The notes beneath the pieces are model-generated. The model searched no databases. It was not told the DNA's origin and worked only from the letters and a program-made list of their open reading frames with translations. DNA of 36,124 bases from Myxococcales bacterium (GTDB taxonomy: Bacteria; Myxococcota; Myxococcia; Myxococcales; JAKAPL01), in the NCBI GenBank assembly GCA_021783235.1, contig JAJXUD010000046.1, forward strand, positions 1 through 36,124. Reading direction: 5' to 3'. Position 1 is the first letter of the stretch, and each line of letters opens with the position of its first letter. This document shows, one piece after another, positions 4,246-26,833 of the stretch. The translations under genes and the position numbers were made by a program.

Positions 4246-5562
4246 GTGTCGCCCGCCTCGCAACCGGAGCTCGCCGTGGCCGTCCTGTGCGGGATCGCGC
4301 GGGCGCTCGGCGGCGCCACCGAGTCGTCGGTGAGCCGGGTGCCGATCACGCGGGCGCGCGAGCTCGCCGAGGGGTCGCGCGCGGGCAAGGCGCTGCTCGC
4401 CCTCAAGGTCGAGCTCGAGCCGGCCTACTGGCTCCACCGGCTCGTCGGGCAGGCGCTCTACGCGGCGAGCGTCCTCGCGGGCGCGCTCGCCTTCGAGGGG
4501 CACGAGCTCCCCTTCCTCGCCGCGGCGCTGGCCTTCGCCGCGGGGGTCGCCGCGCTCGAGCTCGTCCTGCGCGGCTTCGCGGGGCAGAAGCCGGAGGGCT
4601 GGGCGCTCGCCCTCGCCCCGTCCGCCTGGCTCGGGCTCCAGCTCGCGCGCCCCGTCCAGGCGGCCGCCGCCGCGCTGCTCGAGCGGACGCTGCGGCCGCT
4701 CGGCGGCGGGCGGCCCCAGCTCGCGCCGGCGCTGCCCTCGCTCGAGGACGTCGAGTCCTTCCTCGTCGCCGAGTCGCGCGCCGGCCGGCTCGGCCGCACC
4801 GACCCCGAGCTCCTCCGCTCGGTCCTCGAGTTCTCCGAGAAGACCGCCCGCGAGGTGATGGTGCCGCGGACCCAGGTGGTGGGCGTCGAGCTGTCGACCC
4901 CGCCCGAGGAGATCGTCCGGCTCATCTCGGAGCGGGGCCACTCCCGGCTGCCCGTCTACCGGGAGACCATCGACGACATCGTCGGGGTCCTGCACACGCG
5001 GGATCTCGTGCCGCTGCTCGCGAACCCGAAGCTCATCGTGGTTCAGGACGTCATGCGGCCGACCTACTTCGTGCCCTGGGCGAAGCGGATCGGGGCGCTG
5101 TTGCGGGAGCTCCAGGGCCGGCGCATCCACCTCGCCGTGGTGGTGGACGAGTACGGCGGCGTCATGGGCGTCGTGACGCTCGAGGACATCCTCGAGGAGA
5201 TCGTCGGCGAGATCGAGGACGAGGGGCGCCCCGAGGGCAGCCGGGACGTCGAGCTGCTCGCCGACGGCTCGGCGCTGGTGCGCGCCGGCATCTCGGTGGA
5301 CGACTTCGCCGAGGCCTTCGGCGTGAGCCTCGCCTCCGGCGAGTACGAGACGCTCGCCGGCTGGCTCAACGCCCAGGCGGGCACGATCCCAGAGCAGGGC
5401 GACCGCTTCTTCGCCGACGGGGTCCAGATCTCGGTGGTCGATCGGACGCCGCGCCGGGTGCGGCGCGTCAAGGTCGTCCGGACGAAGGGCCGCCTGCCGA
5501 TCGGCGGCCGCGGCGCCGGCGCGGCCGGATCGACCGCGCCCGTCCCCCCAAGGCGATCTTGA
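4246..5562 (+). CDS. CorC/HlyC-like CNNM-CBS membrane protein
   Basis: A 438-residue member of the CNNM/CorC (HlyC) family, inner-membrane proteins linked to Mg2+ and other divalent cation homeostasis. The N-terminal DUF21-like part (about 1-150) has hydrophobic segments near 8-22, 66-84, 88-110 and 118-136. A CBS pair follows: EVMVPRTQVVGVEL (203-216) with HSRLPVYRETIDDIVGVLH, and DVMRPTYFVPWAKRI with HLAVVVDEYGGVMGVVTLED (295-314). The C-terminal CorC_HlyC domain covers about 330-420 and includes GEYETLAGWLNAQAG. The GTG at 4246 is preceded by GGAGGAG, which fixes the start. The DUF21 region is rather divergent, so the transported ion is uncertain. The downstream RMD1-like gene lies 73 bp away on the same strand. 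Confidence 0.85.
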   Translation: MSPASQPELAVAVLCGIARALGGATESSVSRVPITRARELAEGSRAGKALLALKVELEPAYWLHRLVGQALYAASVLAGALAFEGHELPFLAAALAFAAGVAALELVLRGFAGQKPEGWALALAPSAWLGLQLARPVQAAAAALLERTLRPLGGGRPQLAPALPSLEDVESFLVAESRAGRLGRTDPELLRSVLEFSEKTAREVMVPRTQVVGVELSTPPEEIVRLISERGHSRLPVYRETIDDIVGVLHTRDLVPLLANPKLIVVQDVMRPTYFVPWAKRIGALLRELQGRRIHLAVVVDEYGGVMGVVTLEDILEEIVGEIEDEGRPEGSRDVELLADGSALVRAGISVDDFAEAFGVSLASGEYETLAGWLNAQAGTIPEQGDRFFADGVQISVVDRTPRRVRRVKVVRTKGRLPIGGRGAGAAGSTAPVPPRRS

Positions 5563-5623
5563 AGACGAGCAGCAGCGCGAAGAGGCCGAAGACGATGGCG
5601 AGCTTCCAGTCGAGCGCGGTCAC
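5468..5623 (-). CDS. Candidate small membrane protein, antisense to corC-like 3' end
   Basis: A 51-codon minus-strand frame starting GTG 5623. Its first half reads VTALDWKLAIVFGLFALLL followed by VFKIALGG, a clean transmembrane helix. The codons in this half end almost entirely in G or C, although it lies in what would otherwise be the intergenic gap 5563-5635. The second half is Arg-rich (RPRRRRGRR) and antisense to the last ~95 bases of the corC-like gene. Against it: there is no Shine-Dalgarno, and the start codon lies only 12 bases from the start of the divergent RMD1-like gene, leaving no room for a promoter. It may be a real tail-anchored or single-pass small protein or a chance product of GC-rich sequence. 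Confidence 0.25.
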   Translation of the reverse strand: MTALDWKLAIVFGLFALLLVFKIALGGRARSIRPRRRRGRRSAGGPSSGRP

Positions 5624-5635
5624 GGGCGGCGAGAG

Positions 5636-6751
5636 ATGCCAGGCGCGCTGACCGTCCACAAGGGGGCCTTCCTCGCCTACCGGCTCTTCGAGGTCGCCGA
5701 CGAGGTCGACCTCGCGCGGGCCGAGCAGCTCCTCCTCGGCGAGGCGGCCCGCACGAGGCCCCGGCGCGAGCGCTCCGAGGCGCTCGAGATCCCGAACCCG
5801 CCCCTCGCCGTCTCCCTCGGTCGCCGGACGCTCTCGCTCGCCGGCCGCGAGCGGCAGCTCGAGCTGTCGGCGCGCCTCTTCGACTTCGGCGTCGTGAGCC
5901 TCCTCTTCACGGCGGCCCTCGAGGCCCCGGTCGAGCTGGGCTCGCTCGTCGCGCTCTCGGACGAGCTGGCGGACAGCCCCGCGCTCGTCGAGCTCGGCCG
6001 CCGCGAGGTCGACCTCCTCATGGGGCGGCTCGACCCGGCGGCGCGCCGCCCGCACCGCTGGGAGGGGCACGAGACCTACACCGTCCTCTTCCTCGAGGAG
6101 CTGCGGGGCGAGAAGGGGCCCGCGCTCGCGACCGACCTCCTGCGCGACTCCCAGCTCGTCGTGCGGCTCCTCGTCGGCGAGCAGTCCACCCTGCCGCTCT
6201 CGGCCGCCGAGCGGCACGACGTCCTGCGCCGCCGCTTCAGCTACCAGAAGCGCGACCTCGCCGTCATCGACTGGAACTCCGCCCTGGTGCTCGAGCCCTC
6301 CGGCTCGCGCGACGTCCCCGACCTCCTCGAGTTCGCGACCGCGCAGCTCCTCGAGCTGCGCTACTACGACGCGCTGCTCGATCGGGAGCTCGCCCGCATC
6401 TACGGCGAGATCTCGACCCGCCGCTTCGGCCTCTTCTCCCTCTTCGGCGGCCGCTACTCGCAGCTCTCGCGCGAGATGACGAGGCTCGTCGTCGAGGTGG
6501 CCGAGTTCGCCGAGCGGATCGAGAACGCCGTCAAGGTGGTCGGCGACTTCTACCTCGCCCGCGTCTACCACGGCGCCGTGCTCCGCTTCCGCCTCCCGGT
6601 CTGGCAGGCCGCGCTCGACCGCAAGCAGGAGCTCCTCGTGCAGACCGCCGGCGTCCTGAAGCAGGACCTCGACACGCGGCGGACGCTCTCGCTCGACCTC
6701 CTCATCGCGCTGCTCATCCTGGGCGAGCTGCTCCTCGTGCTGAAGGTGTGA
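5636..6751 (+). CDS. RMD1/DUF155-family protein
   Basis: A 371-residue protein resembling the RMD1 (DUF155, YagE/RMND1) family, whose bacterial members have no settled function and whose mitochondrial relatives support translation. The N-terminal two thirds is a soluble alpha/beta domain (for example SARLFDFGVVSLLFTA at ~77-92 and DLAVIDWNSALVLEP at ~206-220). It is followed by a long helical region with RIENAVKVVGDFYLARVY (~294-311) and ends in one transmembrane helix, LSLDLLIALLILGELLLVLKV, the tail-anchor arrangement typical of the family. The start at ATG 5636 has only a weak GGCGAG upstream. The last 38 bases overlap rdrB on the opposite strand, a convergent overlap that looks like the result of insertion of the defence island. 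The family call rests on the C-terminal pattern. Confidence 0.6.
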   Translation: MPGALTVHKGAFLAYRLFEVADEVDLARAEQLLLGEAARTRPRRERSEALEIPNPPLAVSLGRRTLSLAGRERQLELSARLFDFGVVSLLFTAALEAPVELGSLVALSDELADSPALVELGRREVDLLMGRLDPAARRPHRWEGHETYTVLFLEELRGEKGPALATDLLRDSQLVVRLLVGEQSTLPLSAAERHDVLRRRFSYQKRDLAVIDWNSALVLEPSGSRDVPDLLEFATAQLLELRYYDALLDRELARIYGEISTRRFGLFSLFGGRYSQLSREMTRLVVEVAEFAERIENAVKVVGDFYLARVYHGAVLRFRLPVWQAALDRKQELLVQTAGVLKQDLDTRRTLSLDLLIALLILGELLLVLKV

Positions 6752-9404
6752 CGGGGGCAGGGGATGATGTCGCGCTGGTCTCGAGGGTGAAGCGCGACAT
6801 CCAGCCTTCACGGCATCGCCGCTGGAGCCAGCCGAGCGCCTCGGCCGCCGGAAGGCCATCGCGAAGGAGCGCGAAGTAGGCGTAGGCGTACTCGTCGGCG
6901 AGGCGGGTGGCGAAGCTCACGGGGTCGTCGCTGCTGAGCGAGACCCAGAGATCGGCCTCGGGCGCCTCCACCGCGGCCTGCTGGCCGCAGAGCCTGAAGA
7001 GTGGAAGCATCTCGAGGGCCGCGTGATCGCCGATGAGGAGGTTGCTCGAGGGGTTGCCCTCGACCGAAATCTCCTGGCGCGCGAGAAGGCTCCGCAGCCA
7101 GCGCTGGGTCGCCGCCAGCATCCGCAGCTCTCCCTCTCGCACCGCCGACGTTCCAGTGCCCTCGACCGGTCGCTGTCCTCGCTCGAACACCGAGGGATCC
7201 GTGAGATAGCGCCAGAGGAGCGTCTGGGGCTCGTCCAGCGACGCCGGCCTGCGAAGGAATGGGAAACCGAAGCGCTCGAGCTGCGAGCCCTCGAGACGAA
7301 GCCGCCGCAGGTCGAGCAGCGCCTCGAGGCCCGGGGCCCTCGAGGCAAAGATGTCCGCTCCGAGCTGCAACGCCTCGGCCCGAGCGAAGGCGTGCCGCGT
7401 CGGCTCGAGTGGCATCTCGCCCTTCTGCTGGAGGTCGATCTCCCATAGCAGATCGTCGAGCCGCTCCTCGCTCGGCTGGGGTTGCCCGCCACAGGCGGTC
7501 CAACGCTCCGGCGGCACCCCGAGCGCGAGGGCGTGGCCGAGCCGGTCACCCGGCTCGAGGAGCCTGGCCCCGAGGAGCTCGTGGATTCGGCGCAGCCCCT
7601 CGGCGAGCGTCCGAAACTCTTCGCCGGCGTGGCAGGTGAAGCGCATGGGCTCCGCCCGCCAGCGGGGCTCGGCGCTGGCGAGTCGGGCCGACGCTTGCCG
7701 CGAGGCCGCTCGGACGCGCCGGATGAGCGGCGCGAAGGCCCAGGTGGGAACCGCCAGCTCGTCGCTCGCGACGTCGATGCCCCGCAGCAGGCGCAACGAG
7801 CGCGGCTCCACCTCGAGCGCCCGCTCGATCGCCATCGCCTGGCTCAGCTTCTCTTTGTACCAGCCGCCGAAGCGGCAGCCGAAGGGCCCTCCGGGATCGG
7901 CGCTCGACCGCCTCGAGCGGCCCCTGCCCCGCTCACGCTCCTTCGTGAAGTGGTAGATGAGCCCCACCTCCGGTCGCGCGAGGCCGCTTGCCGAAGTGAA
8001 GCGCGCGACCTGGCGATCCAGCCCTTGGACAGCGTCTCGGATCGTCCCCCAGCCGGAACTCGGGGCCAGCCGTAGCTCGATGGAGCCGAGCGAGAGCCCT
8101 CCGGACTCGTGTCGCAGCGCGGCCTCGAAGCACGCCCGGTCGAGCGGCGCGCGAAAGGGCTTCAACGCGGCAAAGCTCTTGCGGAACCAGCCGAGCCCCG
8201 CCGTTCCAGGCTCCAGCGTCAGGTGGCGAAAGAGCCGGCAGCGGACCCGCTGGAGTTGCCAGAAGAGGCGGGCGAATTCGCGGTCTTCGCGGCCCTCTCT
8301 GGCGCTTCGAAGGTAGGCGAGCGACCGGGCGAGGAATCGCGTCTCGGGCAGCGCCCGCCCCTCGGCCGCCGGGAGCCAGCGGGAGATGGGATCCGCCGCG
8401 AGGAGTTCGCTCAGCGCCTCGGCGTGGGGGCCGGGCCCGCAGAGGAGCTGGTGGGCGTACCGCAGCTCCGCCGCCCGAGGCAGCTCCCCGCCGTGAACGA
8501 CCCCGCGAATCGCTCCCAGCCAGCTTCGCTTCAGCGCGGCCCCCCAGGCGCCGGCGGCATCCTGCGAGCAGCTCTCGAGATAGGTCTCGGCGAACTGGGC
8601 GAGGTCGCTCGTCGTGCCACCGCGCTCGCGCTTCCAGAGAAACGCCGCGAGCAGCAGCCGGCAGAGGCCGGCCGCGAGGATCAGCCGGGCGAAGCGCTCG
8701 CCCGGGCCGAACGGATCGTGGCGGTCGAGGTCGATCGAGCGCGGCTCGGGATCCCAGCCTCGCAGGCCCCCCATGAGGCAGCTCCAGAGCTGTGCGAAGG
8801 AGACGGCCGCGCCCGCGTGCAGGTGGTTCTCGGGGATCCGCTCCTCGTGAAGGAGCCGCTCGACGTGTGGCGAGCCGATGGCGACCCAGTCACCCGGCGG
8901 CTCGCTCTCCTCGGAGGAGCAGAGCGCGGCGATCAGGAGATCGGCTGGAAGCGCCAGGGAGAGCCAGCGCCACTGGGCGGCTTGATCGGCGAGGTCGCAG
9001 CCCGGCTCCTGGCGGAGCGTGACGCGCCGCCCCTGGCTGGCCAGGTGGAGCTTCGCCACGTTCGTGAGGTGATCGACAAGGCGAATCCGGCGGGGCCACC
9101 GCCCAGTCGGTGGGTCGCGCGGGGCCCAGGCCCGCTCGCGTACCAGCCGCAGCGCCTCCAGCGAGCGGCCCGCTGCCCGGGGGCGGAGCCAGCCCTCCAG
9201 CTCCTGGGCGATCCGCTCGGTCCCCTCGTCGAGGATCCCGGGCTGTTGCCAGCCCAGCTCGAGCGACGCCTGCGTGAAGGCCAGCCCGGACGTCAGGGGC
9301 CACGCCTCTGCCCAGGCGGTCAAGCGGGCGTTCGGTGCCTCGTGGGGCATGGCGGCGGGGGGCGCGGCCGAGGAGGTCACGACTACTTCATCGCTTCGAT
9401 CCAC
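6714..9404 (-). CDS. rdrB: RdrB, adenosine deaminase of the RADAR anti-phage system
   Basis: An 896-residue, highly divergent adenosine deaminase. All metal and catalytic motifs of the fold are visible in order: HLHAG (194-198, zinc HxH), HAGEEF (592-597, third zinc His and catalytic Glu), GDRLGHA (619-625, catalytic His), EGNPSSN (782-788) and SSDDP (824-828, zinc and substrate Asp). The ~400 residues between the first two motifs are far longer than in housekeeping deaminases (total ~330-350). That length, together with the ATPase partner immediately upstream, identifies RdrB of RADAR. In that system RdrA and RdrB form a large complex that deaminates adenosine in RNA or nucleotides during phage infection. 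The ATG at 9404 overlaps the rdrA stop by 22 bp. The tail after SRFTLE (874) uses A/T-ending codons and reads antisense into the RMD1-like gene, so it is probably not native. Confidence 0.88.
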   Translation of the reverse strand: MDRSDEVVVTSSAAPPAAMPHEAPNARLTAWAEAWPLTSGLAFTQASLELGWQQPGILDEGTERIAQELEGWLRPRAAGRSLEALRLVRERAWAPRDPPTGRWPRRIRLVDHLTNVAKLHLASQGRRVTLRQEPGCDLADQAAQWRWLSLALPADLLIAALCSSEESEPPGDWVAIGSPHVERLLHEERIPENHLHAGAAVSFAQLWSCLMGGLRGWDPEPRSIDLDRHDPFGPGERFARLILAAGLCRLLLAAFLWKRERGGTTSDLAQFAETYLESCSQDAAGAWGAALKRSWLGAIRGVVHGGELPRAAELRYAHQLLCGPGPHAEALSELLAADPISRWLPAAEGRALPETRFLARSLAYLRSAREGREDREFARLFWQLQRVRCRLFRHLTLEPGTAGLGWFRKSFAALKPFRAPLDRACFEAALRHESGGLSLGSIELRLAPSSGWGTIRDAVQGLDRQVARFTSASGLARPEVGLIYHFTKERERGRGRSRRSSADPGGPFGCRFGGWYKEKLSQAMAIERALEVEPRSLRLLRGIDVASDELAVPTWAFAPLIRRVRAASRQASARLASAEPRWRAEPMRFTCHAGEEFRTLAEGLRRIHELLGARLLEPGDRLGHALALGVPPERWTACGGQPQPSEERLDDLLWEIDLQQKGEMPLEPTRHAFARAEALQLGADIFASRAPGLEALLDLRRLRLEGSQLERFGFPFLRRPASLDEPQTLLWRYLTDPSVFERGQRPVEGTGTSAVREGELRMLAATQRWLRSLLARQEISVEGNPSSNLLIGDHAALEMLPLFRLCGQQAAVEAPEADLWVSLSSDDPVSFATRLADEYAYAYFALLRDGLPAAEALGWLQRRCREGWMSRFTLETSATSSPAPVTPSARGAARPG

Positions 9405-11761
9405 GGGTGCGATGGGAATTGGCTGTCGATGCCAATAAGGAGCGCCTGGGCATCGGCCACTTGAATTGGTGTCCCAACTGCGATCTGCTGCGCCTCACGA
9501 AAGGACTCCGCCGCTCGCTCGAGCCGCGCCTGAATGAGCCCTGCTCGAAACTTCTCCCAGTTCTCCTGGGCACCCGTGGCACCCGTCTTCAAGGCGTCGA
9601 GGAGTGCTTTCGCTGTGTCGTTCGGAAGGCCGGACTCCGGAGCCGCAAGGAGCCCCGCTCGGTAGCGGGCCCACTGCACGAGGGCCTCCTCGCGGCGCGA
9701 AGTGGGGTCCCGGTGTGCGATATCGACGATCATCGCCCCGAGCCGCTTCCAATTGGCGTCGGCCGGATTCAACGACTCGGCGGGATTGGCGCAGATCCAT
9801 AGGAACATCGCCCCTAGGCGATCACGCTGTGGGTCGTCGAGCTTCGTTTCAGGTGAAGGCAAGCAGTCGGCCCAGCGGCGTGAGAACCAGATGAGGTCAA
9901 GGATGCTCAATAGATCTGGCGTCGGCCAGGAGAAAGGGATGCTGATTGGCGAGAGTTGCGGGGGACTGCTCCTCCTGGCGAACGGGGCCAGGAGCCCGTT
10001 GAGGAGGGGGCGCAGGGGACCGAGTAGTCCGCCGCCCGGAGAGTGAAGCGCGAGGTCATGGGCCAGGACGAACGCTTGGCCCAGGCGCCCCGAGATCGGC
10101 GACGGCCTCGCCGATGGCTTCTCCGCCGAAAGAAAAACATCTAGGCGGGCTACCGTCGCGAGATCGAATCGCCAGCCATTGTGCCAGTTCGAGGTGGGGG
10201 CGTGGAGCTCGAATCGAATCAAGCCGAATGCGTGCCGGTCGACCTGGAGACCTCCTCCGATGGATGGGATGCGGCGAACGGCCCGCGCGAGCCTCTGCCG
10301 ATCCTCGGGGGACAGCGGCTCCTGCTCGAACGCCCGCCGCCAGAGTTCTTCGACGACTTCTGACGCCTGCCGCGACTCCTGGAGCCATTGCCAGAAGTCG
10401 AGCAGCGTCCTCGGTCGATCGGGCAGCGCCTCGAGGGCCGCCGGGTTCTCTTCGAAGTAGTCGCCCAAGGTCCTCGGCCACGCCCTGATTTTCTTGTCCG
10501 CCTTATCCCTCGTGGTCGCCGGAAGCGGAAGCGGATCGATCCGCTCGCCGATCGAGGACGAATGGCCGGGCGGGAAGTCGCGGCGAAGCTCGGGCGCAAT
10601 CGGACCGAGCGCCAGCCGGTGCGCGCGGGGGATGGCTTTGTCGAGCGCGTCGTGCGCGAGGGTCCAGGCGCTAGCCCGGTCGCCGAGCTCGGCCCGGTCC
10701 GTGGCATTCACTCGAAACCCAGCGAGCGGTGTTCGCAGCTCCCCCAGATACGACGCGCGCAGCGTCAGATCGAAGAGCTTGGCGTCGCCGGTCAAGACGA
10801 ACGCCAGGCGCGGGTGCCAGAGGGTCCGGAGGACCCAGAGCAGCTCGACCGAGCGCTCGGGGTTCATGTCGGCGTCGTCGATGCCGATCACGAAGAGCGG
10901 CGTCTCGGCCGGGGTCGGTCTGGCCCAACAGAGGTAGTCGGAGACGAGTTGGGAGACGAAGCGGTGGAAGCTCTCGACGATTCCCCGTCCGCCGCGGTCG
11001 ACGGCGGCCTCATTCAACTCGACCAGGTAGGTCTCGAGATCGAGCCGGTCGCGACGCTCCTTCAGCGAATCGTCCCAGCCGAGGGCCGCGGCGCGGGCGA
11101 ATTGGTTCCAGCGGATACGCGAGCCGAGTGTCTCGCTGGCCATCGGCTCCCAGGGGGCGCAGCCGCGCCGAGGCGTCTCGGTCTGGGCGGGTGGGCAGGT
11201 GGCGCCCTCTTGGCCGCCCGCCGGCAGCCTCCCCTCGAACAGGCGAACGAGCCGCTCCAGCTCCTGGCCGACCTGCAAGAGCAGATGGGTCGAGCGATCG
11301 ATCGCTTGGAGATCGATGATGCCGATTGGCAGAATCCGATCCCAGGGACGCCCTTTGAAGCGTGAGAAGCCGTCGCTCTTGGGGGACTCCCCGCTCGCCG
11401 GCTGCAGGGTTAGTCTCACGATCGGCTTTACGTGATGGAAGGGGTGGCGTGGGGACTCCCCGCTCGCGAGCCGTTGCAGGTGATCGAGGAGGGTCAAGAA
11501 AACTGTCGTCTTTCCGCTTCCGCGCCCCCCTTCCAACAGGACGACCGAGTTGTACCGGACCGCGTCCAGCCGAAACAGCGCTCTCAGGTCGCTCCTGGCT
11601 GCGGCTGTCGGCTCGGCCGGGTCCTTCGCCGCCAACGCACCGAGGAGTCCCAGCACCCCTTCGAAGGCCGCCTGCTGATCCGAGGAGAGCTCGTCCCAGG
11701 AGTGGACGGGTTGGGCCTCGGGTCGCGCGAGCATCGGCTTCGGCTCTTCTGATGTGGGCAT
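9383..11761 (-). CDS. rdrA: RdrA, P-loop ATPase of the RADAR anti-phage system
   Basis: A 792-residue cytoplasmic ATPase. The Walker A is GGRGSGKTT (78-86) after a hydrophobic strand SVVLLE. The Walker B is LFVIGIDDAD (289-298), followed by FVLTGDAKLF (321-330), which has the position of a sensor-1 strand. The C-terminal ~450 residues are helical, carry many Trp residues and match no common domain. Length, architecture and the overlap with a giant adenosine deaminase gene are those of RdrA, the ring-forming ATPase that in characterised RADAR systems binds RdrB and is needed for defence. I use ATG 11761; an alternative ATG at 11734 would drop nine residues, and neither has a strong Shine-Dalgarno. 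A perfect TTGACA at 11794-11799 faces this gene. No RdrC or RdrD membrane accessory gene is seen nearby. Confidence 0.85.
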   Translation of the reverse strand: MPTSEEPKPMLARPEAQPVHSWDELSSDQQAAFEGVLGLLGALAAKDPAEPTAAARSDLRALFRLDAVRYNSVVLLEGGRGSGKTTVFLTLLDHLQRLASGESPRHPFHHVKPIVRLTLQPASGESPKSDGFSRFKGRPWDRILPIGIIDLQAIDRSTHLLLQVGQELERLVRLFEGRLPAGGQEGATCPPAQTETPRRGCAPWEPMASETLGSRIRWNQFARAAALGWDDSLKERRDRLDLETYLVELNEAAVDRGGRGIVESFHRFVSQLVSDYLCWARPTPAETPLFVIGIDDADMNPERSVELLWVLRTLWHPRLAFVLTGDAKLFDLTLRASYLGELRTPLAGFRVNATDRAELGDRASAWTLAHDALDKAIPRAHRLALGPIAPELRRDFPPGHSSSIGERIDPLPLPATTRDKADKKIRAWPRTLGDYFEENPAALEALPDRPRTLLDFWQWLQESRQASEVVEELWRRAFEQEPLSPEDRQRLARAVRRIPSIGGGLQVDRHAFGLIRFELHAPTSNWHNGWRFDLATVARLDVFLSAEKPSARPSPISGRLGQAFVLAHDLALHSPGGGLLGPLRPLLNGLLAPFARRSSPPQLSPISIPFSWPTPDLLSILDLIWFSRRWADCLPSPETKLDDPQRDRLGAMFLWICANPAESLNPADANWKRLGAMIVDIAHRDPTSRREEALVQWARYRAGLLAAPESGLPNDTAKALLDALKTGATGAQENWEKFRAGLIQARLERAAESFREAQQIAVGTPIQVADAQALLIGIDSQFPSHPWIEAMK

Positions 11762-11769
11762 GGAGCGCG

Positions 11770-11799
11770 AGCTTCGGGCGGCGCGTCGGGCCCTGTCAA
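11770..11799 (-). promoter_or_regulatory. Possible rdrA promoter
   Basis: Reading on the minus strand, a perfect -35 hexamer TTGACA occupies 11799-11794. The -10 position 17-18 bases on is poor (CGAAGC or GAAGCT). A transcript from here would begin within a few bases of ATG 11761, implying a leaderless message or use of the ATG at 11734. Confidence 0.3.
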
Positions 11800-11856
11800 G
11801 GCTGATTGATGGCTCTCGGGCTCAGGGCTTCGGACACGCGGGAGAAGCACGGGACC

Positions 11857-11979
11857 ATGAGCAAGAAGCAGAAGAGGCTCATGGGCTCGGCGCCGACGCC
11901 GACGCTGATCCTGGGGCCCGACCGGAAGAAGGTCAGCCCGGCGGGAACCAGGGGTCAGTCCGGCCCGGCAGGGCAGTAG
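11857..11979 (+). CDS. Possible small protein gene in the defence island
   Basis: A 40-codon frame, ATG 11857 to TAG 11979, encodes a basic peptide beginning MSKKQKRLMGSAPTPTLIL and continuing GPDRKKVSPAGTRGQ. The codons carry strong G/C third positions. GGGAGA lies about 11 bases upstream, a loose Shine-Dalgarno. A strong hairpin with a short T run begins eight bases after the stop, which supports a real short transcription unit. It lies between the divergent rdrA and AAA ATPase genes. It has no membrane segment, so it does not resemble the membrane accessory proteins reported with some RADAR loci. No family is recognised. An overlapping longer frame (11754-12077) gives a low-complexity Arg/Gly/Glu peptide and is less likely. 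Confidence 0.4.
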   Translation: MSKKQKRLMGSAPTPTLILGPDRKKVSPAGTRGQSGPAGQ

Positions 11980-11986
11980 CAGCAGC

Positions 11987-12029
11987 GAGGCCCCGGGGAG
12001 AGAGCAGCAGCGATTCTCGGGGCCTCTTT
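11987..12029 (+). terminator. Hairpin terminator after the small ORF
   Basis: GAGGCCCC (11987-11994) pairs with GGGGCCTC (12019-12026), and GAGA inside the left arm can pair with TCTC inside the right arm across a small GGG bulge. The right arm is followed by TTTG. The T run is short, so it may be a weak intrinsic terminator or an insulating hairpin ahead of the AAA ATPase gene. Confidence 0.5.
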
Positions 12030-12110
12030 GATCCTCAGAACGACGACTTGGCGCGGCTGGACGCCCGGGGTAAGTAGGACGCGGGGGCGCGCCGGCCCCG
12101 AGGAGCGCTG

Positions 12111-13172
12111 ATGCTGAGAGAGATCGACGTCACCGGCTTTCGCGCCTTCGAGCGGCTGAACGTTCGTGGCCTCGGCCGGATCAACCTCATCGTCGGGCAG
12201 AACAACTCGGGGAAGACGTGCCTGCTCGAGGCGATCGAGCTCTTGGGGGCGCGAAGCGTCGCCCCGCTGCAGACCCAGGCACAGCGCAGGGGGGAGCCCT
12301 TCATCGTCCCGGTGCATGGCCAGATGGTCCTCGGCCTCGTGCTTCGGTACGTCCTCCATGGCTATTCGGCCGGCGAAGGGGCGGGCTTCCGAATCTCGGG
12401 GCGCGACGGAGGCGAACGGACGATCGAGGCGAGCATCGCTCGAACACCCGCCGGCATCGTCGCGCCGGTGCTCTACCTGCAGCCGCCGGTCGTCGCGCAG
12501 CCTTCGATGTTCCTCCGCACCAAGGCATCGGACGGACTCGAGGTGTCTTTCCCGATCTTCGGCGAGGATTTCTTGCCAGCGACGCCGCCCCCATGGAGCG
12601 TTGGACCCTCGAGCTCGATGAGCTACGTCGGGACGGGGCCAGTCGGGGCCGCCGAGGCCGTGAGAGCCTGGAGCGCGGTGGTCCTCAAGCCCGAGCAAGC
12701 CCTGGTCCTCGAGGCGATGCGCATCGTGGAGCCGCGCATCGAGGACGCGGCCATCGCGCTGCTTCCCTCGCAGAATCAGACGCTGAGCGTCAAGCTGGAA
12801 GGGGTCGATGGCGGTGTGCCCCTCGGAAGCTTGGGCGAGGGCACCGGGCGGATCCTCTCCTTGGCCGGAAGCCTCGTCGAGGCGCGGAGCGGAATCTTGC
12901 TGGTCGACGAGATCGATCGTGGCCTGCACGTCTCCACGATGGAAAAGATGTGGAAGCTCGCGATCGAGACCGCCCGGAAGCTCGACGTGCAGCTGTTCGC
13001 GACGACCCACAGCGACGATTGCCTCCGGGGGCTCGCGAAGTACCTTCGCTCGGCGCAGGAGGCCGGCGAGGGCGTCGTCCTCCTGCGCCTGGATCGTGGG
13101 CGGACGGAGCCGACTCTCTACCGCCCCGAGGAGATCGTGCTCGGCGCCGAGTCGACCATCGAGGTTCGCTGA
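12111..13172 (+). CDS. AAA ATPase, OLD/AbiL/PARIS-like (AAA_15/21)
   Basis: A 353-residue ABC-type (SMC/RecF-like) ATPase. Walker A is GQNNSGKT (29-36), the ABC signature LGEGTGR is at about 241-247, Walker B is ILLVDEID (262-269), and the switch His is in ATTHSDD (His300). The opening MLREIDVTGFRAFERLNV is typical of OLD-family and AAA_15/AAA_21 ATPases, the class that supplies the sensor subunit in PARIS (AriA), Gabija and OLD systems. It lacks a TOPRIM domain of its own; that activity is probably supplied by the next gene, which starts on the base after this stop. ATG 12111 is preceded by GAGGAG. Together they form a two-gene ATPase-TOPRIM module, inferred to be anti-phage from its neighbour RADAR. 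Confidence 0.85.
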   Translation: MLREIDVTGFRAFERLNVRGLGRINLIVGQNNSGKTCLLEAIELLGARSVAPLQTQAQRRGEPFIVPVHGQMVLGLVLRYVLHGYSAGEGAGFRISGRDGGERTIEASIARTPAGIVAPVLYLQPPVVAQPSMFLRTKASDGLEVSFPIFGEDFLPATPPPWSVGPSSSMSYVGTGPVGAAEAVRAWSAVVLKPEQALVLEAMRIVEPRIEDAAIALLPSQNQTLSVKLEGVDGGVPLGSLGEGTGRILSLAGSLVEARSGILLVDEIDRGLHVSTMEKMWKLAIETARKLDVQLFATTHSDDCLRGLAKYLRSAQEAGEGVVLLRLDRGRTEPTLYRPEEIVLGAESTIEVR

Positions 13173-13826
13173 GTGCCGCAACCACTTGGACGCAAGAACC
13201 TGCTCCTGGTCGAGGGCGACGACGACAAATGGGTCGTCATCAACTTGATGCCGAGGCTCGGTCGCTCGTTCACGTCGGAGCAATGCTGGGTCGAAGCCTC
13301 CGGAAGCGACGCCAGGGCGCTCGCGGTCTTCGCGGTGGCCATCAAGCAGAGCGCTCCGGCGAGGGTCGGCATCGTCCTGGATGCCGACGACGAGGATGGG
13401 AAACGGGCGCCGGATCGCTGGAAGGCGATCTGCGACGAGTTGAACGGCAGCGTGACCGGGCTTCCAGTGGACCCGCCGGCGGAAGGCTGGATCGGATCGA
13501 CCGGCGCAGGCGTGACCGTCGGCGCCTGGATCATGCCGGACAATCAGAACGTCGGCGCCTTGGAGCAGTTCTTGACCCCGATGGTCCCGCGGGCGGATCC
13601 AACGTGGAGCCACGCCGGCCGCGCGGCTACCGAGGCGAGGGGCATGGGAGCGCCCTTCAACCAGAGGCACCATTCGAAGGCCTGGCTTCACACCTGGCTC
13701 GCCTGGCGGACGCAGCCCGGCCGTCCGTACGGCAGGGCGATCACGAGTGGCGACCTCCAACCCAATGGCTCCGCGGCCGCGACTGCGTTCGCGGCTTGGT
13801 TCGAGCGACTCTTCCCCCGCCCCTGA
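13173..13826 (+). CDS. DUF3226 protein, TOPRIM-like putative nuclease
   Basis: A 217-residue soluble protein of the DUF3226 family. Recognised features are LLVEGDDDKWVV (11-22), IVLDADDEDG (67-76), VGAWIMPDNQN (116-126) and SKAWLHTWLAW near 170, the characteristic DUF3226 pattern. The EG(D)DD and DxDDxD elements match the Glu and Asp metal sites of a TOPRIM fold. In PARIS the analogous partner (AriB, DUF4435) is a TOPRIM nuclease unleashed by the ATPase; this gene is placed likewise but belongs to a different DUF. It begins at GTG 13173 immediately after the ATPase stop with zero spacing, so the two are co-transcribed and probably form a complex. Nuclease activity is inference. Confidence 0.82.
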   Translation: MPQPLGRKNLLLVEGDDDKWVVINLMPRLGRSFTSEQCWVEASGSDARALAVFAVAIKQSAPARVGIVLDADDEDGKRAPDRWKAICDELNGSVTGLPVDPPAEGWIGSTGAGVTVGAWIMPDNQNVGALEQFLTPMVPRADPTWSHAGRAATEARGMGAPFNQRHHSKAWLHTWLAWRTQPGRPYGRAITSGDLQPNGSAAATAFAAWFERLFPRP

Positions 13827-20902: not shown

Positions 20903-22375
20903 CTACCCCCCGAAGAGCTTCGCGCCCGCCGTGGCCGCGTCCGAGAGGAGCCCGGGGCCGATGCCGACGGCCAGCACCGCGACGGCCGTCGCGAGGAGCG
21001 CCGCGTCCGTGGCCCAGGAGTGGACCGGGATCTCCTGCGCCTCGGCCGGCGGCTGCATGTAGAGGTAGACGACGACCCGCAGGTAGTAATAGAGCCCGAC
21101 CACCGAGGTCAGCACCGCGACGACCGCGAGCGGAACGAGCCCCGCGTCGACCGCCGCCCGCAGGACGAGCAGCTTCCCGACGAAGCCCGCCGAAGGCGGG
21201 ATCCCGGCGAGCGAGAGCAGGAGCATCGCGGTCGCCGCCGCGGCCCACGGCCGCCGGCGTGCGAGCCCGGCGAACTGGTCGAGGTCCCAGGGCTGGGCGG
21301 AGGCGCCCGAGCGCCGCTCGAGCATGGCCACCGCGCCGAAGGCGCCCGCCGCGGTCAGCGTGTACGCCGCGAGGTAAAAGAGGAGCCCCTGGGTGGCCTC
21401 GGCGCGGACCGCGCCGTTCGCCGCCGCGGCGACGGCGACGAGCAGGTAGCCCGCGTGCGCGACGCTCGAGTAGGCGAGCATTCGCTTCACGCTCCGCTGC
21501 GTCAGCGCGAACAGGTTGCCGATCGCCATGGTGAGGACGGCGAGCGCCTGGACGACGGGCCCCCAGGCGACGGTCCCGGCGAGGCCCGTGCCCCCGAAGG
21601 CCGTGACGAGGATCCGCAGCATGGCCACGAAGGCCGCGGTCTTCACCCCGACCGACATGAACGTGGTCACCGGGGTCGGCGAGCCCTCGTAGACGTCCGG
21701 CGTCCACATGTGGAACGGCACGGCCGCGACCTTGAAGCCGAGCCCCGCGAGGAGGAAGGCGAGCCCCGCGACGAGCAGCGGCCCGCCGCCCGCCGCCGCG
21801 ATGCCTCGCAGGGACGTCTGGCCCGTCGCCCCGTAGCAGAGCGCCGCCCCGTAGAGGAAGAGGGCGCTCGAGAAGGCGCCGAGGAGGAAGTACTTGAAGG
21901 CCGCCTCGGCCGGCCGCTGGCCGGTTCGGAGGTAGGTGGCGAGCGCGTAGGTCGGCACCGACATGAGCTCGATGGCGACGAAGACGAGGAGCAGGTCGGT
22001 GGCCCGAAGGAGCAGGCACATCCCCGCGGCCGACAGGAGGAGGAGCGCGTAGAACTCGCCCCGCTCCGCCGCCCGGACCCGCAAGAAGCCGGCGCCGACG
22101 AGCACGGTGAGGAAGAGCCCGACGCAGACGGTGGCGCCGCCGAAGATCGCGAGGCCGTCCTGCGCCGCGAAGCCGCCGAAGAGAGCGCGCGCGGGCTCCG
22201 AGGCGTTCGCGGCGAAGGAGGCGAAGGCGAGCGCCGAGACGACTCCGGCGACGACCGGCTGGTAGCCGCGCCGCTCGCCGCGCAGGAAGACCTCGCTCAG
22301 CGCGAGGACGAGGGCCCCTCCCGTGAGGAGGAGCTCGGGGAGGATCGCGAGGACGTCGGGGCCCGAGGCGTTCAT
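20903..22375 (-). CDS. nuoN: NADH-quinone oxidoreductase subunit N
   Basis: A 490-residue antiporter-like, proton-pumping subunit of respiratory complex I in the inner membrane. It is hydrophobic throughout, with about 14 helices. Family marks include FVAIELMSVPTYALATYL (the conserved helix-5 Glu), EAAFKYFLLGAFSSALFLYG (helix-7 Lys), KVAAVPFHMWTPDVYEGSP and AGIPPSAGFVGKLLVL. Length is normal. ATG 22375 has AGGAG seven bases upstream. It is the last gene of the cluster, nine bases after nuoM. The diguanylate cyclase follows on the same strand. Confidence 0.95.
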   Translation of the reverse strand: MNASGPDVLAILPELLLTGGALVLALSEVFLRGERRGYQPVVAGVVSALAFASFAANASEPARALFGGFAAQDGLAIFGGATVCVGLFLTVLVGAGFLRVRAAERGEFYALLLLSAAGMCLLLRATDLLLVFVAIELMSVPTYALATYLRTGQRPAEAAFKYFLLGAFSSALFLYGAALCYGATGQTSLRGIAAAGGGPLLVAGLAFLLAGLGFKVAAVPFHMWTPDVYEGSPTPVTTFMSVGVKTAAFVAMLRILVTAFGGTGLAGTVAWGPVVQALAVLTMAIGNLFALTQRSVKRMLAYSSVAHAGYLLVAVAAAANGAVRAEATQGLLFYLAAYTLTAAGAFGAVAMLERRSGASAQPWDLDQFAGLARRRPWAAAATAMLLLSLAGIPPSAGFVGKLLVLRAAVDAGLVPLAVVAVLTSVVGLYYYLRVVVYLYMQPPAEAQEIPVHSWATDAALLATAVAVLAVGIGPGLLSDAATAGAKLFGG

Positions 22376-22384
22376 TCCGAACTC

Positions 22385-24043
22385 CTAGTGGTGGCGGCGC
22401 ATCAGCTGCCGCAGGATGTTCGGCGGAATCTGGGGGAAGGGGTGGCCCGGCGCCGCCCCCGGCGCCGGGGCGGCGCGGGGCGGCGCGGGCGCGAAGACCG
22501 GCTCGGAGATCGGGGCGAGCCCCACCTCGGCGGCGCGCGCGTCCCCCATCCGCTGCACGAGCCGCTCCGCCGACGGCTGGATCCAGTCGAGCCAGGGCTG
22601 CGGCCAGACGCCCATCACGACGATGAGCGCGGCGAGCGGCGCGAGCACCGCCCACTCGCGGCCCGACAGGTCGGCGAGCCGCTCGTTCTCGCGGTGGCGC
22701 ACCTTGCCGAAGAAGACGCGCTGGTACATCCAGAGCATGTAGACCGCGCCGAGGATGACCCCCGCGGCGGCGACCGAGGCGATGACGGGGGCGTTCGCGA
22801 GCCGCGAGGTCCACGAGCCGGCGAGGATCAGGAACTCGCCGACGAAGCCGTTCGTGCCCGGCAGCCCGATGCTCGCGAGCGTGACGAGCAGCCAGGCGGC
22901 GGCGAGCCCCGGCACCACCCTCGCGAGGCCGCCGTAGTCCGCGAGCGCGCGGGTGTGGCGCCGCTCGTAGAGGATGCCGACGAGGACGAAGAGGGCGCCC
23001 GTCGAGACGCCGTGGTTCAGCATCTGGTAGACGCCGCCCGACAGCCCCTCCACCGTGAACGCCGACAGCCCGAGCATCACGAAGCCGAGGTGGCTCACCG
23101 ACGAGTAGGCGACGAGCCGCTTCATGTCCCGCTGCGCGAGGCACATCAGCGCGCCGTAGAGGATGCCCACCACGGCGAGGACGGCGAGGGTGGTCCGCAG
23201 CTCGAACGCCCCCCGCGGGAAGAGCGGGAAGGCGTAGCGGAGGAAGCCGAAGCCGCCCATCTTGAGGAGGACGCCGGCCAGGATCACCGATCCCGCCGCG
23301 GGCGCCTCGGTGTGGGCGTCCGGCAGCCAGGTGTGCAGCGGCACCATCGGGACCTTGATGGCGAAGGAGATCGCGAAGGCAGAGAACAGCCAGACCTGCG
23401 TCGCCCGGGGGAGCTTCGGCGCCGCCTTCAGGATCTCGAGGTAGTCGAAGGTGTGGCCGCCGGGCCCCGCGACGGCGAAGTAGACGTAGAGGATCGCGAT
23501 CAGCATGAGCAGCGATCCCGCCATCGTGTAGACGAAGAACTTCACCGCCGCGTAGAGCCGCCGCTCGCTCCCCCAGATGCCGATGAGCAGGTACATCGGC
23601 ACCAGCATCAGCTCCCAGAAGACGTAGAAGAGGACGAGGTCGAGGGCGAGGAAGGCGCCGAGCATCGCCGTCTGCAGGACGAGCAGCGCGATGACGAACT
23701 CCTTGACCCGCTCCTTCACCGCCGAGAAGGCCGAGAGGACGACGAGCGGCCCGAGCACGGCGGTGAGCAGGACGAGCACGAGGGCGAAGCCGTCGATCCC
23801 GACGTGGTAGGAGAGGCCGAGCCCCTTCACCCAGGGGACGGTCGTCTGGAGCTGGAACTCGGGCGCGCCGGCCCGGCCGTCGAACGCCGCGGCCGCCCAG
23901 CAGGCGACGCCGAGGGTCGCGAGCATGAAGCCGAGGCCGAGGGCCCGCTGCTGGCCTTGCTCCTCGCGCGGCAAGAGGCCGACGAGGACGGCGCCGAGGA
24001 GCGGCAGAAAGACGAGGAGGGTGAGGATCGGGAAGTCGGTCAC
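22385..24043 (-). CDS. nuoM: NADH-quinone oxidoreductase subunit M
   Basis: A 552-residue antiporter-like subunit of complex I. The helix-5 Glu is in VFWELMLVPMYLLIGIWG, the helix-7 Lys is in AAVKFFVYTMAGSLLML, and the conserved segments KVPMVPLHTWLPDAHTEAP and MKRLVAYSSVSHLGFVMLG are present. It is about 40 residues longer than usual because of a Pro/Ala-rich C-terminal tail (after ~510) ending in RQLMRRHH, whose role is unclear. It sits six bases after nuoL and nine before nuoN, in one operon. Confidence 0.95.
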   Translation of the reverse strand: MTDFPILTLLVFLPLLGAVLVGLLPREEQGQQRALGLGFMLATLGVACWAAAAFDGRAGAPEFQLQTTVPWVKGLGLSYHVGIDGFALVLVLLTAVLGPLVVLSAFSAVKERVKEFVIALLVLQTAMLGAFLALDLVLFYVFWELMLVPMYLLIGIWGSERRLYAAVKFFVYTMAGSLLMLIAILYVYFAVAGPGGHTFDYLEILKAAPKLPRATQVWLFSAFAISFAIKVPMVPLHTWLPDAHTEAPAAGSVILAGVLLKMGGFGFLRYAFPLFPRGAFELRTTLAVLAVVGILYGALMCLAQRDMKRLVAYSSVSHLGFVMLGLSAFTVEGLSGGVYQMLNHGVSTGALFVLVGILYERRHTRALADYGGLARVVPGLAAAWLLVTLASIGLPGTNGFVGEFLILAGSWTSRLANAPVIASVAAAGVILGAVYMLWMYQRVFFGKVRHRENERLADLSGREWAVLAPLAALIVVMGVWPQPWLDWIQPSAERLVQRMGDARAAEVGLAPISEPVFAPAPPRAAPAPGAAPGHPFPQIPPNILRQLMRRHH

Positions 24044-24049
24044 GCGGGG

Positions 24050-26011
24050 TCACCGGAGGAGGAGCCAGAGCATCGCCACCGCCCCGAGGGCCATCGCGGT
24101 GGCGTAGCGCTGCGCGTCGCCGTCCTGGAGCGGCCGCAGCACGACCTGCGAGAAGACCCGGACGAACCAGCCGGTGCCCCGGACGAGCACGCCGTCGATG
24201 AGCCCGGCGTCGATGAGCCGCCAGACGACCCGCGCGCCGCCGAAGAGCGGCCGGACGACGAGGAGGTCGTAGATCTCGTCCACGTAGAACTTGTTCGCGA
24301 CGAGCGAGTAGGCCCAGGGAGCGCTCGCGGCGAGCTTCGCCGGGGCCGCCTGGCCGGGGCCGACGTAGAGGAGCCAGGCGCCCGCGAGGCCCGCCCAGGC
24401 GACGAGCAGCGCGACGCCGTAGAGGGCCCAGGGCACGCCCGTCTCCCGCGCCGGGACCAACGCGGGGAGCGCGTGCATCGCCTGCGCGAAGACCGGCTCG
24501 AGGAAGCGCTCGATCGGCGCGCCCCCCTCGAGGGGCAGGCCGAGGACGAGCGCGGCGATGGAGGCGAGCGCGAGGATCCAGGTGACGAGGGTCATCGAGA
24601 TCGGCGCCTCGTGGCCGTGCTCGGCCGCCTCGCTGCGCGGCGCCCCCCCGAAGGTGAGCGCGAAGGCGCGCCACATGTAGAAGGCGGTGCCGAGCGCGGC
24701 GGCGGTGCCCACCGCGTAGAGCAGGACGGGCGACCAGGGGAAGAGCCGGTTCGAGCTGGAGAGCGCGAGCCCGAGGATCGCGTCCTTCGAGAAGAAGCCC
24801 GAGAGCGGCAGCACGCCCGTGATGGCCACGGTCGCGACGCCGAAGGCCGCGGCGGTCTGGGGCAGCCGCTTTCGCAGGCCGCCCATCTTCCGCATGTCCT
24901 GCTCGCCGTGCAGCCCGTGGATGACGCTGCCCGCGCCGAGGAAGAGGAGCGCCTTGAAGCAGGCGTGGGTGACGAGGTGGAAGATGGCGGCCCAGAAGGC
25001 GCCGACGCCGGTCGCCATCACCATGTAGCCGAGCTGGGAGATGGTGCTGTACGCGAGCACCTTCTTCAGGTCGTTCTGCGCGAAGGCGATGATGGCCGCG
25101 AAGGCCGCGGTGCCGCCGCCGATCAGGGCGAGGACGAGCATCGCCACCGGCGAGAGCGCGAAGAGGAACGAGAGCCGGCTGACGAGGTAGACGCCCGCGG
25201 TCACCATGGTGGCCGCGTGGATGAGCGCCGACACCGGCGTCGGGCCCGCCATCGCGTCGGGCAGCCAGACGTAGAGCGGGATCTGGGCGCTCTTGCCGGT
25301 GACGCCGAGCGCGAAGAGCAGGCAGACGAGCGTCAGCGCTCCGCCGAGCGTCCAGCCGGCGAAGGCGCCCTGGTGGAGCAGCGCCGAGGGGTCGAGCCCC
25401 GCGGCCGCGGCGCGGAGCTGGCCGAACTGCGCCGTGCCGAAGAGGGCGAAGAGCGCGAAGACGGCGAGGGTGAAGCCGAAGTCGCCCACCCGGTTCGCGA
25501 TGAACGCCTTCTTGCCCGCCTGGGCGTTCTTCTCGTCCTCGTACCAGAAGCCGATGAGGAGGTAGGAGCAGAGGCCGACGCCCTCCCAGCCGACGAAGAG
25601 CAGGACCAGGTTGTCCGCGAGCACGAGCACGAGCATCGCGGCGACGAAGAGGTTCAAGTAGGCGAAGAAGCGGCCGGGCGACGGGTCGTCCGCCATGTAG
25701 CCCGTGCTGTAGACGTGGATGAGGAAGCCGACCCCGGTGACGACGAGCAGCATCACGGCGGTGAGCCGGTCGACCACGAGCCCCGCGCCGACGTGGAAGG
25801 CGCCGACCGTGAACCAGTTGCCGGCCACGGCGGGCTCGGCGCCGTTCCAGACCGCGACGAAGGCCGCGACCGACAGGGCGAAGGCGCCGAGCACCATCCC
25901 CGAGGCGATCGTGCCGACGTTCTGCCGGCCGAGCCGGGGCCCGAGCGCGCCGCAGACGATCGCGCCGAGCAGGGGGAAGAGCGGGATGAGGAGCAGGCTC
26001 TCGGGGGACAT
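24050..26011 (-). CDS. nuoL: NADH-quinone oxidoreductase subunit L
   Basis: A 653-residue distal antiporter-like subunit of complex I, including the long lateral helix at the C-terminal end. Marks include LLFVGWEGVGLCSYLLIGFW (helix-5 Glu), GKSAQIPLYVWLPDAMAGPT, SALIHAATMVTAGVYLVSR and DLKKVLAYSTISQLGYM. Length and order of segments are normal for the family. The gap to nuoK is three bases and to nuoM six bases, so translation is likely coupled. Confidence 0.96.
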   Translation of the reverse strand: MSPESLLLIPLFPLLGAIVCGALGPRLGRQNVGTIASGMVLGAFALSVAAFVAVWNGAEPAVAGNWFTVGAFHVGAGLVVDRLTAVMLLVVTGVGFLIHVYSTGYMADDPSPGRFFAYLNLFVAAMLVLVLADNLVLLFVGWEGVGLCSYLLIGFWYEDEKNAQAGKKAFIANRVGDFGFTLAVFALFALFGTAQFGQLRAAAAGLDPSALLHQGAFAGWTLGGALTLVCLLFALGVTGKSAQIPLYVWLPDAMAGPTPVSALIHAATMVTAGVYLVSRLSFLFALSPVAMLVLALIGGGTAAFAAIIAFAQNDLKKVLAYSTISQLGYMVMATGVGAFWAAIFHLVTHACFKALLFLGAGSVIHGLHGEQDMRKMGGLRKRLPQTAAAFGVATVAITGVLPLSGFFSKDAILGLALSSSNRLFPWSPVLLYAVGTAAALGTAFYMWRAFALTFGGAPRSEAAEHGHEAPISMTLVTWILALASIAALVLGLPLEGGAPIERFLEPVFAQAMHALPALVPARETGVPWALYGVALLVAWAGLAGAWLLYVGPGQAAPAKLAASAPWAYSLVANKFYVDEIYDLLVVRPLFGGARVVWRLIDAGLIDGVLVRGTGWFVRVFSQVVLRPLQDGDAQRYATAMALGAVAMLWLLLR

Positions 26012-26014
26012 GGG

Positions 26015-26329
26015 TCAGTTCCGCAGCGCGCGCAGCTCGTCGACGTTGATGCTGCCGCGGCTGCGGAAGGCGGCGATGACGACGGCGAGCCCCACCGAGG
26101 CCTCGGCGGCGGCGACCGCGACGACGAAGAAGGCGATGGCGTGGCCGTCCAGGCTGGGCCGGCCCCGCACGGGGAAGCGCGCGAAGGCGAGGAAGGTGAG
26201 GTTCGCCGCGTTCAGCATGAGCTCGATCGACATGAAGACGACGAGCGCGTTGCGCCGCACGAGCACGCCGAGGAGGCCGAGGCCGAAGAGCAGCGCGGCG
26301 ACGACGAGGAAGTGGGGAGCGCCGATCAT
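26015..26329 (-). CDS. nuoK: NADH-quinone oxidoreductase subunit K
   Basis: A 104-residue, three-helix subunit of the complex I membrane arm, related to MrpC. It contains VFMSIELMLNAANLTFLAF, with the conserved Glu of the proton path, and a further buried acidic residue in VAAAEASVGLAVV. Length is typical (about 100). Its ATG overlaps the nuoJ stop by four bases (26326-26329), so the two are translationally coupled. Confidence 0.96.
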   Translation of the reverse strand: MIGAPHFLVVAALLFGLGLLGVLVRRNALVVFMSIELMLNAANLTFLAFARFPVRGRPSLDGHAIAFFVVAVAAAEASVGLAVVIAAFRSRGSINVDELRALRN

Positions 26330-26826
26330 ATCTTGCCCTTCGCCACGACCACCGCGCCCACGATGGCCGCGAGCAGCAGCACCGAGGTGGCCTCGAACGC
26401 GAGCGTGAACTTGCCGTAGAGCAGCCGCCCGACCGCCGCCACGGTGCCGAAGTCGGTGGCCGCCGGGGTGGCGCGGACCGGCAGCGCGACGAGCGTCGAG
26501 ACGACGAGCGCGGTGACCCCGGCCGCGCAGAGCGCGCCGACGACCTTGCCGACGCCGAAGCGGGGGCTGCCGAGCTCCGCGGGCGTCAGGTTCAGGAGCA
26601 TCAGGACGAAGAGGAAGAGCACCATGACGGCGCCCGCGTAGACGATGACCTGCAGCGCCGCGATGAGCTGAGCGTCGAGCAGCAGGTAGAGCCCCGCGAG
26701 CGCGAAGAACGAGCCGACGAGCGACATGGCGCCGTGGACCGGGTTCTTCGCGGCGACCACGCCGACGCCGCCCGCGACCGCGAGGACGGCGAAGATCCAG
26801 AAGAGGACGGCGACGGTGCCTTGCAT
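26326..26826 (-). CDS. nuoJ: NADH-quinone oxidoreductase subunit J
   Basis: A 166-residue, five-helix membrane subunit of complex I. It has the family pattern KNPVHGAMSLVGSFFALAGL, followed by AALQVIVYAGAVMVLFLFVL, the helix that carries the pi-bulge. It starts at ATG 26826, only seven bases after the nuoF stop, where nuoG, nuoH and nuoI would normally intervene. Confidence 0.95.
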   Translation of the reverse strand: MQGTVAVLFWIFAVLAVAGGVGVVAAKNPVHGAMSLVGSFFALAGLYLLLDAQLIAALQVIVYAGAVMVLFLFVLMLLNLTPAELGSPRFGVGKVVGALCAAGVTALVVSTLVALPVRATPAATDFGTVAAVGRLLYGKFTLAFEATSVLLLAAIVGAVVVAKGKI

Positions 26827-26833
26827 GCGATTC

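Follow-up and report, generated by a model that had tools for sequence, protein, structure and literature searches.

The window analysed here, an entire contig of 36,124 bases from a 4.58-Mb, 133-contig myxobacterial genome that is 97% complete, carries on its minus strand a gene for the ATPase RdrA followed in tandem by a gene for the deaminase RdrB. Taken as a whole, the explanation that we favor, at a probability of about 90%, is that the locus belongs to a Myxococcota-specific branch of the RADAR anti-phage systems and by analogy would work as the structurally solved RADARs do. A sequence-only reading of this DNA had proposed such a pair in a Myxococcota-like host. Its ATPase frame and its 896-residue deaminase frame were both found where it had placed them, and sequence profiles, catalytic residues, tandem order, and fold comparison agree that the two are RdrA and RdrB. 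The host is indeed a myxobacterium, of the order that includes Myxococcus. The find is genuine, although it was to be expected, and its myxobacterial branch is largely overlooked by the gene-naming models now in use.

The rdrA-rdrB gene pair

The features of the pair are as follows.
9383..11761, minus strand: rdrA, 792 aa, ATG start; the AAA+ ATPase of RADAR
6714..9404, minus strand: rdrB, the giant adenosine deaminase of RADAR; 896 aa from a GTG start, or 878 aa from the conserved ATG at 9350
9348..9350, minus strand: alternative rdrB ATG start; residue M19 of the long frame, an invariant column in alignment A3

Where does rdrB begin? Only a start at GTG 9404 produces the 22-bp overlap with rdrA that the sequence-only reading had described. 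A start at ATG 9350, located 54 bp downstream, abolishes it and leaves a 32-nt gap (9351-9382). M19 is invariant among the ten closest RdrBs, whose proteins start at or near that residue. No clear Shine-Dalgarno sequence that would decide between the two starts was found.

The tandem arrangement is widespread. Of 127 RdrB loci from many phyla, 110 have an rdrA-like gene upstream, no more than 800 bp from rdrB, and the spacing in these 110 loci mostly ranged from an overlap of a few bases to a 26-base gap. Several of the RdrB loci lacking an rdrA-like gene are interrupted by contig ends. A single-protein scan of the genome contigs recovered no relative; variability made the broad alignment (A1) unsuitable for pattern search, and the closer alignment (A3) was used with success. 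An apparent RdrA-RdrB fusion, a 1,867-aa frame in locus L045, was rejected because a separate rdrA frame (5100-7817) ends just ahead of the rdrB match at ~7844.

The pair had also been called a minimal two-gene form because no RdrC or RdrD gene accompanies it. This description does not apply, since RADAR normally consists of two genes (PMC9994260). Accessory genes are optional, an example being the SLATT gene in locus L087. Neither SLATT nor another known accessory gene was found near the pair in the window, and this is not unusual for a system described as consisting of two genes. In the Rhizobium leguminosarum plasmid pRLN3 (L088), an adenylosuccinate synthetase gene (9962-11563) lies ~0.9 kb downstream of rdrB on the same strand, and it is possible that it serves RADAR as a purine-nucleotide accessory.

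RdrB is a RADAR deaminase with an enlarged fold

RdrB contains all the adenosine-deaminase motifs that had been quoted for the 896-residue protein: HLHAG (H194/H196), HAGEEF (H592/E595), DRLGHA (H624), EGNPSSN (782-788), and SSDDP (D826/D827). The key positions of these motifs show little or no variation across 25-27 homologues, and the motifs are therefore not a product of chance. In an alignment to E. coli-type RdrB, residues H194, H196, H592, E595, and H624 correspond to H152, H154, H498, E501, and H530, the zinc and catalytic residues named for the E. coli protein (PMC9994260).

RdrB was the top-ranked family in PADLOC (E=2.4e-20), NCBIfam (NF041744, E=2.2e-28, 99 bits against a curated cut-off of 800 bits), PDB sequence searches (8FNW, E=2.4e-16; 8FNV, ~2e-16), and fold searches. 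A profile built from the protein of the window and nine myxobacterial relatives reached 8FNW at E=5.6e-37, whereas the best ordinary adenosine deaminase (ADA) appeared at E=2e-4.

Further evidence came from an AlphaFold model of RdrB (pLDDT 86). Foldseek matched the model to 8fnv at E=1.5e-25 and to the best ADA at 1.9e-5, a comparison that depends partly on sequence homology because the AlphaFold input alignments for both RdrB and RdrA contained E. coli-type sequences. The model aligned with RdrB chains at Z 35.6 and 33.8 across 687-690 residues; the higher value, over 687 residues, was for RdrB 8hr7. The matches to ADA, ADGF, and Cad1 covered about 306-379 residues (~310-320 for plain adenosine deaminases). 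In other words, RdrB insertions 1-3 are matched as well as the ADA core. The deaminase was thus placed with RdrB, and not with the AMP deaminase or ADGF housekeeping families, by profile, PDB, and fold searches alike. The glutamates of the E. coli 3-fold interface, E595-E597, fall opposite R689-A690-P691, where the alignment is poor. They are not conserved in this alignment, so the assembly contacts of the protein may differ from those of E. coli RdrB.

RdrA retains the AAA+ motifs and the predicted helical insertions

The following features were assigned in RdrA.
78-85: Walker A, GGRGSGKT
D295/D296: Walker B, IDDAD
D326: sensor-1 position
R451: sensor-2 position
~440-792: C-terminal module

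As a single sequence, RdrA matched the NCBIfam RdrA model NF041743 at E=8.5e-06 with 24.5 bits, below the curated cut-off of 600 bits. A PDB sequence search with this protein alone gave no match, and PADLOC detected the RdrB of the window but not its RdrA. More direct evidence came from a profile of myxobacterial sister RdrAs that contained no annotated RdrA and nevertheless reached the annotated RdrA of Aliivibrio salmonicida (L083) at E=1.9e-10. A similar sister profile recognized, at E<1e-3, 73 rdrB-linked upstream genes outside its training set as against 3 other genes. The sisters-only profile reached E. coli RdrA in the PDB at E=0.17 only; the link to the PDB became visible only with a broader profile that included E. 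coli-type members, or by fold. In Foldseek, all 20 matches of the RdrA model (pLDDT 70) at E<=0.001 were RdrA chains. The best match was RdrA 8hr8 (Z 22.1), and the next family was BrxC (Z 12.7). The NF041743, sister-profile, and fold searches all put the ATPase inside the RdrA family, as had been proposed.

The Walker A/B and sensor positions are kept, as G81, K84, D295/D296, D326, and R451 align with the G, K, DD, D, and R of E. coli-type RdrA. The model predicts one helical block (160-279) flanked by strands 143-150 and 289-295, and another (327-376) ahead of strand 382-385. RdrA has been described as having a crown insertion and a second, three-helix insertion after sensor 1 (PMC9994260), and the two predicted helix blocks match the positions of these insertions. 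The C-terminal part is largely helical in the model, at low confidence; the best structural alignment ends at ~580, and others reach 730-743 at high rmsd.

Position of the locus in the RADAR family

In a tree of 95 RdrBs, the protein of the window falls in a clade of 26 that consists of Myxococcota only (SH-aLRT 100). This clade neighbors one made up mainly of Bacillota and lies apart from the E. coli type, a deep branching that is tentative because a quick tree method was used. Identity to non-myxobacterial members is 19-22% for RdrB and 14-18% for RdrA. Such values are not exceptional, as the conserved part of RdrB is only 24-28% identical among verified RADARs, and the E. coli and S. suis RdrAs are less than 20% identical (PMC9994260).

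Does the NCBIfam shortfall of both proteins argue against membership? The RdrB of locus L162 is almost the same protein as the solved E. coli RdrB, which it matches with 1,634 bits, yet it scores 111 bits on NF041744. Since this protein misses the cut-off of 800 bits equally, the shortfall is no argument against RADAR membership. An RdrB match at E<=0.001 was present in 37 of 195 Myxococcota genomes, 6 of which have short and weak matches that are probably ordinary deaminases, and none of the 195 has a match above the cut-off. RADAR is thus fairly regular in myxobacteria, as a clade that lies below the current NCBIfam cut-offs. A literature search of limited coverage found nothing on RADAR in Myxococcota, which is no proof of absence. 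Two myxobacterial genomes have three RdrB-like loci apiece, on different branches of the clade (L058, L059, and L060 in G115; L063, L064, and L065 in G135).

A duplicated C-terminal module in sister RdrAs

Several sister RdrAs are 1,118-1,213 aa long because a C-terminal module of ~350 aa is present twice. The RdrAs of the window and of L092, and forms of 830-872 aa, carry one such module. The duplicated module ends in ..APESGLP..IDxxFPxHPW.., and in an hhalign profile comparison the two copies matched each other with a probability of 99.7% (E=1.5e-25, 316 columns). Long myxobacterial RdrAs with the tandem module include the following, among others.
3566-6979 in L089
3193-6654 in L068
3458-6970 in L090

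The C-terminal domain of RdrA has been proposed as a phage sensor (PMC9994260), a role that we infer for the module in myxobacterial RdrAs as well. Because of this proposal, the natural series of one-copy and two-copy RdrAs is possibly informative and offers a direct handle on what RdrA senses. A more far-reaching and tentative idea, which we consider doubtful, is that the Myxococcota branch constitutes a RADAR subtype of its own. Its RdrA C-terminal module would be a modular phage sensor, duplicated or single depending on the species, and its triggers and contacts would differ while the ATP-deaminating chemistry is kept.

Genomic surroundings

The genes around the pair are listed below.
5636-6751, plus strand: a 371-aa protein, hydrophobic at its C-terminus; the gene converges on rdrB, with a 38-bp overlap at the rdrB 3' end
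12111..13172, plus strand: PDC-M38A, an AAA_21/AAA_15 ATPase that is PARIS AriA-like (PADLOC PDC-M38A E=5e-61, AriA E=3e-25; Pfam AAA_21)
13173..13826, plus strand: PDC-M38B, a DUF3226 protein that begins right after PDC-M38A (PADLOC PDC-M38B E=1.6e-44; Pfam DUF3226 E=2e-50)
20906-28279, minus strand: complex I (nuo) genes, among them three for Proton_antipo_M subunits and one for a NuoF-like protein

The complex I genes indicate a chromosomal setting. PDC-M38A and PDC-M38B are divergent to rdrA and related to PARIS AriA and AbiL-type ATPases, and we judge them to be a separate PARIS-like candidate defense system. The 371-aa protein had no Pfam, NCBIfam, or PADLOC match and has a counterpart of 65-66% identity in a genome of the same family (G002). 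It presumably resembles RMD1/DUF155 proteins, which serves as a lead only. In an empty-site comparison with two same-family genomes, an acyl-CoA dehydrogenase gene and the next gene are syntenic with the window; neither rdrAB nor PDC-M38 was found upstream in G002, within the limits that contig ends set to the comparison. None of the window's neighbors recurs as a shared third gene within 5 kb of the myxobacterial rdrAB loci.

Proposed mechanism and alternative explanations

How would the system act? From the solved systems, we infer that RdrA would assemble into an AAA+ ring with a crown that sits on a shell of RdrB, in a heptamer-dodecamer assembly. A cue of phage infection would be sensed, probably via the C-terminal part of RdrA. 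On infection, the zinc-dependent adenosine-deaminase site of RdrB would convert ATP and dATP into ITP and dITP, and this conversion would stop phage replication.

The locus could be RADAR by descent and still have altered chemistry or an altered trigger, with a different adenine nucleotide, or else nucleic acid, as the RdrB substrate, or with RdrA responding to a different phage cue. The deep divergence from verified systems, the apparently non-conserved interface glutamates of RdrB, and the duplication of the proposed sensor module in many sisters point in this direction. However, every catalytic and ATPase residue is kept. Furthermore, verified RADARs are equally divergent, yet those of E. 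coli and C. rodentium both yield ITP and dITP (PMC9994260). Altered chemistry or an altered trigger is an unlikely account of the locus.

It is far less likely that RADAR and the divergent PDC-M38A/B pair form a single four-gene defense module. Both pairs are of a defense type, and their start codons point apart across ~350 bp (11762-12110). Nevertheless, the pairs are on opposite strands, co-location in a defense island accounts for their adjacency, and no such neighbor accompanies rdrAB within 5 kb in the myxobacterial relatives. Hardly credible at all is a housekeeping adenosine or AMP deaminase, or an ADGF, that happens to lie beside an unrelated ATPase. A weak Pfam A_deaminase match to RdrB (E=1.2e-4, below the cut-off) would fit such a protein. 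The size of an RdrB, the three insertions, and the far longer structural match to RdrB chains than to ADA or ADGF do not, nor does the co-occurrence of rdrB with rdrA across phyla. The Foldseek and Z-score comparisons of both proteins contradict it as well.

Comparison with known systems

Cad1/CAAD likewise has an adenosine-deaminase domain, in a defense enzyme that converts ATP into ITP (PMC11645235). Cad1/CAAD has a fused CARF domain and is controlled by cyclic oligoadenylate, and it matched only ~315-335 residues of the RdrB model, in its deaminase part. Pfam, NCBIfam, and PADLOC reported no CARF domain in the RdrB of the window.

The best structural match for both proteins is the RADAR of E. 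coli P0304799.3 (PDB 8FNT/8FNV/8FNW) and of PDB 8HR7-8HRC, which share with the window the tandem rdrA-rdrB order (PMC9994260, PDB titles), the zinc and catalytic residues and three ADA-core insertions of RdrB, and the AAA+ motifs and two helical insertions of RdrA, the latter as predicted by the model. Identity to E. coli-type members is nevertheless ~21% for RdrB and ~16% for RdrA. RdrA is 792 aa long in the window and 947 aa in the E. coli type, the distance from HxH to the third histidine of RdrB is 396 residues as against 344, and the E. coli interface glutamates have no counterpart in the poor alignment there.

The annotated rdrA/rdrB of Aliivibrio salmonicida plasmid pVSAL840 (L083) agree with the window in gene pair, order, and key residues. 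However, they belong to the branch that is modeled by NCBIfam and PADLOC (970 and 781 bits), whereas the window lies outside of it. The RADAR loci of Myxococcus, Pyxidicoccus, and Archangium (L089-L097) are in the clade of the window (SH-aLRT 96-100), and their RdrBs are 36-45% identical to its RdrB. Many of their RdrAs are of the long form with the duplicated C-terminal module, whereas the RdrA of the window has one copy.
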